Shown: positions 2,151 through 56,834 of the stretch, piece by piece
How positions within the stretch are numbered: position 1 is the stretch's first letter
Layout: every line of letters starts with the position of its first letter
Program-made: the position numbers and the translations under genes
NCBI RefSeq assembly: GCF_020667835.1
Contig: NZ_JAFMPR010000001.1
Span: 372,001-436,000, forward strand
Source of the DNA: Roseibaca sp. Y0-43
Lineage (GTDB): Bacteria; Pseudomonadota; Alphaproteobacteria; Rhodobacterales; Rhodobacteraceae
Direction: 5' to 3'
Length of the DNA stretch: 64,000 bases
Notes under the pieces: model-generated
What the model was told of the DNA's origin: nothing
What the model saw: the letters and a program-made list of their open reading frames with translations, nothing else
The model's database searches: none

Positions 2151-3050
2151 ATGGATTGGGACAAGCTCAGGATATTTCATGCCGTTGCCGATGCGGGCAG
2201 CCTGACCCATGCGGGCGACGCGCTGCAATTGTCGCAATCCGCCGTCAGCCGCCAGATCCGCGCGCTGGAAGAGGCCTTGGATACCAGCCTGTTCCACCGT
2301 CACGCGCGCGGGCTGATCCTGACCGAACAGGGCGAATTGCTGTTCAAGGCCACCAAGTCCATGTCACGCGAGCTGGAAACGGCGTCCGCCCGCATTCGCG
2401 ACAGCGAGGACGAGGTGTTTGGCGAGTTGCGCGTGACCACGACCACGGGTTTTGGCACGCTGTTTCTGGCCCCGCGCCTGCCTACGCTCTATGCCCAGTA
2501 TCCAGAGTTGAAGATCGACCTTATGCTGGAAGAGCGCGTGCTGGACTTGCCCATGCGCGAAGCCGATGTGGCGATCCGCATGAAGGAACCCAGCCAAGCC
2601 GACCTGATCCGCAAGCGCCTGATGAATGTGAACATGCGGCTGTTTGCGACCTCTGAATACCTGCGCGCGAATGGCACGCCCCATGCGATCGAAGACCTGT
2701 CGGATTATCGGCTGATCTCGCAAAACGTGACATCGGCGCAGGTCAGCGTGGGCGCACAACTTATACGCGAGCTGAACGCCCGCCCGCTGCGGTCCACCTT
2801 CACGGTGAACAATTATTTCGGCGTGTTGCAGGCGGTTCTGAACCATCTTGGCATCGGCGTTCTGCCCGATTACGTCGCCGAGGATTTCCCCGAACTGGTG
2901 CATGTGCTGCCCGAAGTCGCCAGCGGCGATATTCCGGTTTTTCTGGCCTTCCCCGAAGAGCTGCGGCATTCGCGGCGCATCGCGGCCTTTCGCGATTTCG
3001 TGGTGCAGGAAATACAGGCCTATCGCCGCGCACGGCAGATGCAGGGCTAG
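2151..3050 (+). CDS. LysR-family transcriptional regulator
   Basis: A 299-residue protein with the LysR plan. The N-terminal winged helix-turn-helix spans about residues 1-62 (WDKLRIFHAVADAGSLTHAG, then SQSAVSRQIRALEEAL). An effector-binding domain of periplasmic-binding-protein type spans about residues 90-295. It should act as a cytoplasmic DNA-binding tetramer that responds to a small molecule, but the ligand cannot be read from the sequence. LysR proteins often control the divergent neighbour, here murI/argC, across a 239-bp gap. The downstream neighbour is a putative small RNA rather than a gene of the same operon. The start ATG at 2151 opens directly into the helix-turn-helix domain. 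Confidence 0.93.
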   Translation: MDWDKLRIFHAVADAGSLTHAGDALQLSQSAVSRQIRALEEALDTSLFHRHARGLILTEQGELLFKATKSMSRELETASARIRDSEDEVFGELRVTTTTGFGTLFLAPRLPTLYAQYPELKIDLMLEERVLDLPMREADVAIRMKEPSQADLIRKRLMNVNMRLFATSEYLRANGTPHAIEDLSDYRLISQNVTSAQVSVGAQLIRELNARPLRSTFTVNNYFGVLQAVLNHLGIGVLPDYVAEDFPELVHVLPEVASGDIPVFLAFPEELRHSRRIAAFRDFVVQEIQAYRRARQMQG

Positions 3051-3122
3051 GCATGTTCAACCTAAACCTGAGACATGTCTGCAACGCATGTCGGAGTTGT
3101 TGCAGGGGCAAGGGAAATTAAC

Positions 3123-3150
3123 TTGCGAACCATGTGTTTGGTCATTTAAT
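3123..3150 (+). promoter_or_regulatory. Sigma70-like promoter of the putative small RNA
   Basis: TTGCGA at 3123-3128 and TTTAAT at 3145-3150 are 16 bp apart. Transcription would start near 3156-3157, which is exactly the first base of an 11-bp stem. That alignment is the main reason to believe it. No coding gene begins downstream before the terminator at 3206. Confidence 0.5.
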
Positions 3151-3156
3151 AGGCGG

Positions 3157-3233
3157 TAAGACGTGATTGGAGATCATTCATGTCTTAACCTCCCTGTTGG
3201 ACTTCGGCCGAGCATTGCGCTCGGCCTTTTTTT
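3157..3233 (+). ncRNA. Putative small regulatory RNA (about 77 nt) with an exposed CCUCCC
   Basis: No gene fits here, but the stretch folds like a bacterial trans-acting RNA. A 5' stem of about 11 bp pairs 3157-3167 with 3176-3187 (one bulge), with loop UGGAGAUC. An unpaired segment follows at 3188-3205 and contains ACCUCCCUG, complementary to Shine-Dalgarno sequences. The RNA ends in a strong intrinsic terminator (GGCCGAGC/GCUCGGCC then seven U). The loop GGAG could also pair with the CCUCC inside the same molecule. Alphaproteobacteria have families of anti-Shine-Dalgarno RNAs with CCUCC-type motifs, so this may be a relative. Targets are unknown. It could also be a 3'UTR-derived RNA of the LysR gene. 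Confidence 0.55.
3206..3233 (+). terminator. Intrinsic terminator of the small RNA
   Basis: Perfect 8-bp stem GGCCGAGC (3206-3213) and GCTCGGCC (3219-3226), loop ATTGC, followed by seven T (3227-3233). The rest of the gap up to purL (3234-3375) holds no gene that I can see. Confidence 0.9.
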
Positions 3234-3375
3234 ATGCCGATGCCGGGCACTGCACGCACAGCGATTCGCGTGTGCCGTCCGGCTGCGCATTCGGTGTCGC
3301 GGCAGCGCGCGCCCCCTTTTGCTTGGGGCCGCAATAGCCTAGAAGGCAGCAAGCTTGCCTGAGAGGATGCCCTAG

Positions 3376-5541
3376 ATGACCGATCCCGCCCTCACGCCTG
3401 ACCTGATTGCGGCGCATGGCCTGTCGCCGGACGAATATGACCGCATCCTGGAGATCATCGGGCGCGAACCCAGCTTTACCGAGCTGGGCATCTTCTCGGC
3501 CATGTGGAACGAGCATTGCTCCTACAAATCCTCGAAGAAATGGTTGCGCACCCTGCCCACCTCTGGCCCGCAGGTCATTTGCGGCCCCGGCGAGAATGCG
3601 GGCGTGGTCGATATTGGCGACGGGCAAGCCGTGATCTTCAAGATGGAGAGCCACAACCACCCGTCCTATATCGAACCCTATCAGGGCGCTGCGACCGGCG
3701 TGGGCGGCATTTTGCGCGACGTGTTCACCATGGGCGCGCGCCCCATCGCGGCGATGAACTCGCTCAGCTTCGGCGCCCCGTCGCATCCCAAGACGCCGCA
3801 TCTGGTCTCCGGCGTGGTCGAAGGCGTGGGCGGCTATGGCAATTGTTTCGGCGTGCCCACCGTTGGCGGCGAAGTCCGCTTTCACCCCGCCTATAACGGC
3901 AACTGCCTTGTGAATGCCTTTGCCGCCGGGCTGGCCGACGCCGACAAGATTTTCTATTCGGCAGCCAGCGGGGTCGGGATGCCCGTGGTCTATCTGGGTG
4001 CCAAGACGGGCCGCGATGGCGTGGGCGGGGCGACCATGGCCAGCGCCGAGTTTGACGACACGATCGAAGAAAAGCGCCCGACCGTTCAGGTAGGCGACCC
4101 GTTCACCGAAAAGCGCCTGTTGGAAGCCTGTCTGGAACTGATGGCCTCTGGCGCGGTCATCTCGATTCAAGACATGGGCGCGGCGGGCCTGACTTGTTCG
4201 GCCGTGGAAATGGGCGACAAGGGCGGCTTGGGCGTGAAGCTGCAACTGAGCGACGTGCCCCAGCGCGAAACGGCGATGACCGCCTACGAGATGATGCTGT
4301 CCGAATCCCAGGAACGCATGTTGATGGTGCTGAAACCTGAAATGGAGTCAGAGGCGCGCGCGATTTTCGAGAAATGGGATCTGGATTTCGCCATCGTTGG
4401 CGAGACGATTGCCGAAGACCGCTTCCTGATCCTGCACGGCAATGACGTGATGGCGGACCTGCCGCTGTCGAAACTGTCTTCCAGCGCCCCGGAATATGAC
4501 CGCCCTTGGGTCGAAACGCCCCCGGCGGGTGATCTGCCGGACCTGCCCACGATCGCGCCCATGGATGGTTTGCGCGCACTCATTTCCGCGCCCAGCTACG
4601 CCTACAAGGGCTGGGTGTGGGAGCAGTATGACAGTCAGGTCATGGGCGACACGGTCCGCACCCCCGGCCTTGGCGCGGGCGTGGTGCGGGTGCATGGCAC
4701 GACCAAGGCGCTGGCCTTCACCAGCGACGTGACACCGCGCTACGTGCGCGCCAACCCGTTCGAGGGTGGCAAACAAGCCGTGGCCGAAGCCTACCGCAAC
4801 CTGACGGCCGTGGGGGCCGTGCCCTTGGCCACAACCGATAACCTGAATTTCGGCAACCCCGAAAAGCCAGAGATCATGGGCCAGTTCGTGGGCGCCATTC
4901 AAGGCATCGGCGCGGCCTGCACGGCTTTGGACATGCCTATCGTTTCGGGCAATGTGAGCCTCTATAACGAAACCGACGGCAAACCCATTCTGCCCACGCC
5001 CACGATTGGCGCGGTCGGGCTGATTGCCGATATCGAGCAGATCATCGCGGGCCTGCCGTCAGAGGGTGATCTGGCGCTGGTGATTGGCGAAACCAAGGGG
5101 CATTTGGGCCAATCCGCCCTCCTGGCCGAAGCCGCCGGGATAGAGGCCGGCGATGCCCCCTATGTCGATCTGGATGCCGAGCGCCGCAATGGCGACTTCC
5201 TGCGCGCGAACCGGGCGCTTGTCACCGCCGCAACCGACCTCTCGGACGGTGGACTTGCGCTGGCCGCGTTCGAGATGGCCGAAGCGGCAGGCATGGGCGT
5301 CACGCTCGAGAGCGGCGACATTGGTCAGCTCTTTGGCGAAGATCAGGCGCGCTACCTTGTGGCTGCAAGCTTCGACCAGGCAGAGGCGCTGATGGTCGCG
5401 GCGGGCCAAGCCGGTGTTGCCATCGCCATGGTGGGCCGCTTCGGGGGCGATACCGTCAGCTTCGGCGACGACAGCGCGCCCATGGCAGAGCTATCCACGC
5501 TCTACCGCAGCAGTTTCGCCAAAGCCATCGGCGCGGCTTGA
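3376..5541 (+). CDS. purL: Phosphoribosylformylglycinamidine synthase subunit PurL
   Basis: ATP-dependent amidation of FGAR to FGAM in de novo purine synthesis, working with the small subunits PurQ and PurS, which are not in this window. The 721-residue length matches the small, multi-subunit form of PurL. It shows [15 protein letters not shown] (His47, conserved in the active site) and [20 protein letters not shown], which holds ATP/Mg-binding residues. The later repeat half carries the [14 protein letters not shown] motif. A GAGAGGA ribosome-binding site lies 8 bases before the ATG. bolA-like and grxD genes follow on the same strand, an order common in this family of bacteria. Confidence 0.97.
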
Positions 5542-16818: not shown

Positions 16819-17847
16819 ATGAAGACCTTTTTGACCACGACCGCGCTGTGCGCTGGCTTGATCGCCGGGACCGCACAGGCACAAGAAACCTGGAATATGC
16901 AATCGACCTTCCCGGGTTCGTTGACTCAGCTCGGCACCATGGGCAAGCGCGTGGCCGAACAGATCACGCAGATCACCGATGGCGAGATCGAGGTGGTCTT
17001 CCAAGAGCCCGGCGCAATCGTACCGGCATTCGAGGCATTTGACGCAGTGGGCACCGGCGCGGTGGAAGCTGGTTGGTCAAACCCAGGTTACTGGGCAGGG
17101 CGTGTGCCTGCGCTACAGCTCTTGGCGGCTGTCCCCTTCGGTCCGCAAGCTGGTGAGTATCTGGCATGGATGAAGTTCGGTGGCGGTCAGGAATTCCTGA
17201 CCGAGTTGTATGAACGTCACAACATCAAATCGCTGCCCTGCGCCGTGACCGCTCCCGAAGCGGCAGGCTGGTTCCGTGAGCCCATCAATACCCCAGAAGA
17301 CCTGCAAGGCCTGACCATGCGCTTCTTCGGTCTGGGCGCGAAGGTCATGGAAAAGATGGGCGTGTCCACGCAGCTTCTGGCCGGTGGCGACATCTTCCCG
17401 GCTCTGGAACTGGGCACCATCGACGCGACCGAGTTCTCGATGCCCGCCGTGGATCTCAGCTCGGGCTTCTATCAGGTTGCAAGCCAGTATTATTTCCCGG
17501 GCTGGCACCAGCAGTCGACCTTCTATGACCTGCTGATCAATCTCGACCTGTGGGAGAGCCTTGACGAAAGCACGCAGTTCAAAATCGAAACCGTGTGTGA
17601 CGCGAACCTTGCCTACGGTCTGGCAGAGGGTGAATACCTACAGTTCAGTGCTCTGCAAGAGTTGGTGGGGAACGGTGTCACTCTGAACACGCTTTCTGAC
17701 GAGTTGCTGACCGCTCTCGAGGCTGCCTGGATGGAAGTGGTTGCGGAAGAATCGGCCGCAGACGCAGATTTTGCCCGTGTGTATGAAAGCTACGCGGCGT
17801 TCCGTGAAAACTACAAAATCTGGGGCGACCTGGGCTTCCTGAAGTAA
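16819..17847 (+). CDS. TRAP transporter substrate-binding protein, TakP-like
   Basis: Periplasmic receptor that captures an organic acid and hands it to the membrane subunits for sodium-driven uptake. It has 342 residues and a clear signal peptide (MKTFLTTTALCAGLIAGTAQA, cleaved before QETWN). GGDIFPALELGTIDATEFS and YFPGWHQQST are features I associate with the TakP branch (2-oxo acids such as pyruvate, possibly lactate). The ATG follows GGAGGAGA. An earlier in-frame ATG at 16750 would bury the signal peptide. The gene is noticeably less GC-rich at third positions than its neighbours. Two hairpins separate it from the permease genes. Confidence 0.92.
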   Translation: MKTFLTTTALCAGLIAGTAQAQETWNMQSTFPGSLTQLGTMGKRVAEQITQITDGEIEVVFQEPGAIVPAFEAFDAVGTGAVEAGWSNPGYWAGRVPALQLLAAVPFGPQAGEYLAWMKFGGGQEFLTELYERHNIKSLPCAVTAPEAAGWFREPINTPEDLQGLTMRFFGLGAKVMEKMGVSTQLLAGGDIFPALELGTIDATEFSMPAVDLSSGFYQVASQYYFPGWHQQSTFYDLLINLDLWESLDESTQFKIETVCDANLAYGLAEGEYLQFSALQELVGNGVTLNTLSDELLTALEAAWMEVVAEESAADADFARVYESYAAFRENYKIWGDLGFLK

Positions 17848-55525: not shown

Positions 55526-56683
<1,158 letters not shown>

Positions 56684-56834
56684 GGTATCCTTCCAGATAT
56701 GTGCCCTTCGTTGGGGAAGGGTGTCCCGCTGCCGCCATTACGCCTGTTGCCGGACTGGCGCAAGGAAAACTTTTGCTCTAAAGCGCCGCTTGAGCGCGCG
56801 AAAGCGACGCGCCCCATCGCAGGAAGAAATGCCC

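Follow-up and report, generated by a model that had tools for sequence, protein, structure and literature searches.

The gap between a LysR-family regulator gene and purL raised the question of whether it encodes a small RNA and, if so, whether this RNA belongs to a known family. Positions refer to the window, the whole stretch of 64,000 nucleotides that was analyzed. A sequence-only reading had described a self-contained small RNA gene with an anti-Shine-Dalgarno segment, which it did not recognize and for which it suggested a switchable or dimerizing regulator. The observation was confirmed and the interpretation held in part: the small RNA gene stood, but the RNA was not an unrecognized one and the switch was not supported. 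Read as a whole, positions 3157–3233 (+ strand) very probably hold the gene for the SorY small RNA in a bacterium of the Roseinatronobacter group. The RNA is genuine, yet it belongs to an already-known family, SorY, described in the related photosynthetic bacterium Rhodobacter sphaeroides, in which oxidative stress induces it and it lowers a nutrient transporter.

Gene order and family assignment

The LysR-family regulator gene (2151–3050, + strand; Pfam HTH_1 and LysR_substrate) was used as the upstream synteny marker and purL (3376–5541, + strand; Pfam AIRS, AIRS_C and FGAR-AT_linker) as the downstream marker. No gene was found over the small RNA stretch between the LysR end at 3050 and the PurL start at 3376, in line with the earlier statement that coding genes do not explain it. 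The RNA stretch lay 106 bases beyond the end of the LysR gene. In R. sphaeroides (genome G110, locus L035), the SorY model matched at C4:1632645 with 115 bits, between LysR and PurL, and both marker proteins were recovered in this locus with tblastn (72% identity to the window LysR and 87% to the window PurL). Passages of PMC6238624 place the main SorY 5' end of R. sphaeroides at 1,632,642 and the SorX cleavage site at 2,598,224. Since SorX was located at 2,598,225 in G110, this genome was taken to share the coordinates of the published reference genome; the published SorY 5' end is then 3 bases ahead of the model match at 1,632,645 and corresponds to position 1498 of L035. Orthology of the window RNA to R. 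sphaeroides SorY rests on gene order, sequence and structure. Gemmobacter tilapiae (L040/L086) had approximately 1 kb extra between LysR and SorY compared with most other loci.

A covariance search against Rfam, which had been proposed as a check, matched the RNA at 3157–3233 to SorY (RF02651) over model positions 1–83 of 83 with 49.8 bits (E 4.3e-9, permissive settings), short of the SorY gathering score of 111. The match to SorX (RF02784) was 47.6 bits (E 1.5e-10), passing the gathering score of 46.6. A default Rfam scan of the window consequently returned the SorX label, barely above the cut-off, and under permissive settings SorY had the top bit score and SorX the smaller E-value. Since both families share the core and the terminator type, the score alone left SorY versus SorX undecided, and gene order settled the assignment. 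Among 295 genomes spread over the family, one (G110, R. sphaeroides) passed the SorY gathering score of 111, versus 279 with SorY-model matches at E ≤ 0.001, a count that takes in SorX copies. The cut-off was therefore taken as fitted to the close kin of R. sphaeroides; seen this way, it is not a biological feature, and membership rests on gene order. Within the genus, 35 of the 36 genomes (own genome included) had SorY-model matches at E ≤ 0.001, again with SorX copies counted. One genus genome (G012) was without a SorY-model match and without the exact core, a possible loss. A covariance model built from 29 genus sequences gave 87 bits for the window, which is in the training set, 63.5 bits for R. 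sphaeroides SorY and 42.7 bits for the SorX of the own genome.

The label assigned by the default Rfam cut-offs would make the window RNA a SorX copy, i.e., a 3'-UTR-derived RNA processed from the upstream mRNA. The score (47.6 bits, cut-off 46.6), the core ACCUCCCUGUUGGAC common to both families and the similar terminator speak for this assignment, which we nevertheless consider very unlikely. The genome contained exactly two copies of CCTCCCTGTTGGAC, one in the window and one on contig C33, and the C33 copy (L001, C33:173485–176562) was a far better SorX, with 73 bits. As in R. sphaeroides, it was located downstream of an OmpR-type response regulator gene (Response_reg and Trans_reg_C); this gene and its counterpart upstream of SorX in R. 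sphaeroides share 83% identity. Passages of PMC6238624 describe SorX as released by RNase E from the 3' UTR of an OmpR-type gene; the window copy, in contrast, followed a LysR gene and had conserved promoter-like boxes and the SorY neighbors. Since the neighboring genes of each locus matched those in R. sphaeroides, the window locus was assigned to SorY and the C33 locus to SorX. A third, weak relative was observed elsewhere in the genome (L003, C50:94858–94919; 31.4 bits to SorX and 24.1 bits to the genus-built SorY model).

With the SorY assignment, one supposed unknown RNA is struck off the list, and present Rfam thresholds can be seen to misname or miss SorY. When default cut-offs were applied to 40 relatives, all of them LysR- or purL-linked SorY loci (20 of the 29 genus loci, L006–L025 of L006–L034, and 20 of the 80 named loci, between L071 and L143), 18 were labeled SorX, 22 remained unnamed and none was labeled SorY. 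Re-seeding RF02651 with LysR–purL loci would fix this naming. Elsewhere in the window, a serC leader (RF00517) was detected at 56680–56731 (− strand; 69.9 bits, cut-off 35). The literature search returned nothing mentioning Roseinatronobacter together with sRNA, and only unrelated papers for an anti-Shine-Dalgarno RNA with Rhodobacteraceae and purL. SorY, SorX and takP did not come up in a term search of PMC10673084.

Structure and conservation of the RNA

In the predicted fold of the RNA, a 5' hairpin was joined through a linker with ACCUCCCUGUUGGACUUC to a GC-rich terminator carrying seven U. The fold had a free energy of −32 kcal/mol (z = −5.8), and none of 200 dinucleotide shuffles was as stable. 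The 5' hairpin (3157–3187, + strand) was defined by the fold and by compensatory changes. An 11-bp stem had been given earlier; the fold showed 10 contiguous pairs (3157–3166/3178–3187), followed by 2 pairs past a mismatch. Downstream, the segment ACCUCCCUGUUGGAC (3188–3202, + strand), with ACCUCCCUG at 3188–3196, contained the anti-Shine-Dalgarno CCUCC (3189–3193) and is the presumed target-pairing region. The intrinsic terminator (3206–3233, + strand) had the form GGCCGAGC-AUUGC-GCUCGGCC plus U7. Its stem (3206–3226) with seven T was the one terminator-like site in 2900–3500; since shuffled sequences averaged 0.5 sites, the scan by itself proves little, and the proof comes from conservation of the stem.

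The segment described before as single-stranded was present, but its CCUCC was predicted to be only partly unpaired. For a start at 3157, the unpaired probabilities of its five bases were 0.75, 0.75, 0.74, 0.70 and 0.32, and with a start at 3154 or 3155 the first two C paired with G3155–G3156 in the fold. The mean unpaired probability of CCUCC had a median of 0.66 over 127 loci and reached 0.8 or more in 2 of them. In these fold calculations, the anti-Shine-Dalgarno stretch is thus only partly free, to a degree set by the exact start. The loop of the 5' hairpin contains GGAG (3169–3172), complementary by letters to CUCC, and pairing with CCUCC, within one molecule or between two, had been put forward as a self-switching or dimerizing mechanism. 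Such a mechanism appears highly improbable: forcing GGAG onto CUCC gave −21.2 versus −32.0 kcal/mol, a cost of 10.8 kcal/mol, and the computed dimer gained only 3.9 kcal/mol over two monomers. Additionally, 8 of the 127 loci and 2 of the 29 genus sequences, the window being counted in both, had GGAG in the 33 bases preceding CCUCC. At least one of GGAG, GAGG, GGGG and AGGG was present in these 33 bases in 40 of the 127 loci. Being rare and energetically unfavorable (approximately 11 kcal/mol), the GGAG switch was rejected.

Conservation of the core was assessed from loci chosen by the LysR protein alone. In 78 of the 80 named loci, the top 80 among at least 570 LysR relatives, CCTCCCTGTT[GA]GAC was found within 1.5 kb downstream of LysR, so that SorY extends well past R. 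sphaeroides. The two loci missing the core were L119 and L074, the latter on a contig ending after 91 bases. L119 carried the LysR gene, yet neither the core after it nor a match to covariance model R2, a possible loss (R1 was applied to 96 sources, R2 to 44). The 127 loci were obtained from 140 (L004 and L006–L144) by leaving out three without LysR (L018, L039 and L043), two without the core (L074 and L119) and eight duplicates. Since these 127 loci were selected for the core, only the set chosen by LysR bears on its constancy. All columns of segment 3188–3202 were identical in the 29 genus sequences, rows that had been picked by the core motif.

The 5' stem varied in sequence around a helix that tended to be retained. 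At least seven contiguous pairs in a stem that stopped directly ahead of the core were found in 72 of the 127 loci (mean 13.9 and maximum 23 over 40 shuffles), and at least six in 89 of them, with 56 different 5' arms; the 38 loci with fewer than six contiguous pairs count against the SorY reading. In the 29 genus sequences (alignment A1, 29 rows out of the 127), 80% of the stem cells were paired and both-sided changes occurred in 8 of 9 stem pairs, while the terminator was paired in 100% of cells. The compensatory stem changes that the sequence-only reading had named as a check were found, as were the constant CCUCC, in the LysR-chosen loci, and conservation of the strong terminator. For the whole structure, the covariation score and the paired cells were higher than in any of the 500 shuffles or any slid version; less clear measures were the both-sided pairs, equaled in 47 of 500 shuffles, and the further pair types, equaled in 31 of 500. 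These shuffles ignore the relatedness of the sequences. In a wider fitted alignment (93 distinct rows), the 5' helices were paired in 56–65% of cells, since the stems vary in length and register, and the covariation score of the whole structure was still above all 500 shuffles.

Predicted promoter and transcription start

The promoter-like boxes noticed earlier belong to a conserved pair: CTTGCG (3122–3127) and CATTTAA (3143–3149), separated by a spacer of 15 in an RpoH-like arrangement (3122–3149, + strand). A CTTG was present 50–95 bases ahead of CCTCC in 122 of the 127 loci (window included). In 200 mononucleotide shuffles, the count averaged 22.9 of 127 and never exceeded 35. The commonest −35 words over the loci were CTTGAT (39), CTTGCG (32) and CTTGAA (28), and the commonest −10 word was CCTAAAT (16). 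The spacer was 16 in 93 of the 122 loci, a count that is favored because the second box was picked for best fit. Passages of PMC3441632 give the −35 TTG as a shared mark of RpoHI and RpoHII promoters of R. sphaeroides, with C/T at −14/−13 for RpoHII. Because of this mark and the conserved CTTG pair, the boxes were read as RpoH-type, and from the sequence we infer that the window promoter would depend on an RpoH-type sigma factor. The genome encoded three RpoH-like sigma genes (open frames of 300–325 aa), of which one passed the family cut-off, as well as a fourth, larger relative. A sigma-70 promoter for the small RNA was also considered and rejected, as a scan of 2900–3500 gave none.

By comparison with the R. 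sphaeroides SorY start at 1,632,642, transcription is predicted to start at 3155–3157, and the start near 3157 given in the earlier reading is likely on this placement. Boxes, stem, conserved anti-Shine-Dalgarno segment and terminator were kept together in LysR–purL gaps, which bears out the description of a self-contained small RNA gene. That the stretch is instead a cis-acting purL leader (attenuator), with no separate RNA, has next to no probability, although purL follows it on the same strand: the strong terminator finishes 142 bases ahead of purL, the distance between RNA and purL varies among loci, purL was not seen in 12 of 30 family loci with the RNA (in stretches reaching approximately 1.5 kb), and SorY has its own promoter in R. 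sphaeroides according to passages of PMC6238624.

Predicted targets and comparison with known RNAs

As described in parts of PMC6238624, PMC8307010, PMC5036791 and PMC7866481, SorY of R. sphaeroides is RpoHI/RpoHII-dependent and unprocessed, binds Hfq, affects takP mRNA stability, limits malate import and lowers TCA-cycle flux; passages of PMC5036791 and PMC6238624 also give it a role in singlet-oxygen resistance, besides Hfq binding and an action on takP mRNA. By analogy, RpoH-type sigma factors would turn on the window SorY under singlet-oxygen and other stress, and Hfq would bind it. Its CCUCCCUGUUGGAC segment may pair with transporter mRNAs at their ribosome-binding site, as with takP in R. 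sphaeroides, and the lowered transporter expression would let less organic acid flow into the TCA cycle. A mechanism of this class, in which an anti-Shine-Dalgarno segment blocks the translation of transporter mRNAs, is plausible.

In duplex calculations, the R. sphaeroides SorY core paired with takP (L153, identified through the 2hzk protein) at −29.6 kcal/mol over the Shine-Dalgarno and start region. Three other TRAP genes of R. sphaeroides gave −20.4, −21.6 and −23.1 kcal/mol, takP being the strongest of the 4 tested (of 9), and the calculation agrees with the published SorY target. In the own genome, 6 of the 9 genes for TRAP binding proteins were covered and gave −14.9 to −21.2 kcal/mol, weaker than R. 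sphaeroides takP, in a comparison that somewhat favors R. sphaeroides through the core length used (24 bases versus 20 for the own genome). The strongest of these pairings was with the gene after C53:142419 (−21.2 kcal/mol). Within the window, a TRAP solute-binding gene (DctP family; 16819–17844, + strand) had a strong ribosome-binding site and a pairing energy of −18.0 kcal/mol, ranking second among the 47 genes of the window, whose median was −12.5 kcal/mol when each long open frame was started at its first ATG.

The pattern CCAAC-N0-4-AGGGAGG-N2-10-ATG, derived after the pairing of the C53 gene had been seen, matched in the own genome only the antisense of the RNA itself and one TRAP binding-protein gene (C53). 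TRAP enrichment among extended-complement matches failed its control: over 36 genomes, 3 of 18 non-self matches were TRAP genes (Pfam DctP), and the pattern with its 5-mer scrambled gave 5 of 9. The 18 came from 30 of 31 listed places (one without a locus) and include some mutual orthologs; L201 among the 18 and L202 among the 9 begin no real frame. Prediction of targets by extended complement was rejected on this larger TRAP share of the control. Since the scrambled pattern picked TRAP genes even more often, the signal was attributed to the AGGGAGG ribosome-binding site rather than to extended pairing. Genus TRAP binding-protein genes (DctP) with an AGGGAGG ribosome-binding site (L178, L192, L203–L205, L207 and L208) matched unrelated 5' words too. 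In R. sphaeroides, GTCC-N0-4-AGGGAGG-N1-9-ATG gave seven rows representing six places (SorY, takP and four others), and the extended-complement pattern is therefore not unique to takP, with five places beyond SorY, takP included. A broader proposal is that SorY and SorX of Rhodobacteraceae form a duplicated RpoH-driven anti-Shine-Dalgarno pair with the fixed core ACCUCCCUGUUGGAC and freely changing 5' stems, acting in oxidative stress as a general brake on AGGGAGG-type nutrient-transporter mRNAs, beyond one mRNA; we regard this as doubtful.

Among known systems, the window RNA resembled SorY of R. sphaeroides (RF02651; RSs1543) in the LysR–SorY–purL order, the RpoH-like promoter, the whole-model match, the 5' hairpin ending directly before ACCUCCCUGUUGGACUU and the GGCCGAGC terminator. 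The two differed in the letters of stem and loop and in the −35 box (CTTGAA there, CTTGCG in the window), and the own TRAP genes (6 of 9 tested) were without a site as strong as that of takP. SorX (RF02784; RSs2461), a paralog, shared the core and had a similar terminator, but it is excised by RNase E from an OmpR-type 3' UTR (passages of PMC6238624), and the SorX of the own genome was the separate locus L001. MmgR/suhB RNA (RF00519) likewise had CCUCCCU and GACUU ahead of a terminator of the GGCC type, but the match was weak (25.5 bits, below the cut-off of 41) and the 5' hairpin was another one. The Betaproteobacteria toxic small RNA (RF02278) matched 3181–3233 weakly, with 23.5 bits, below the cut-off of 50.
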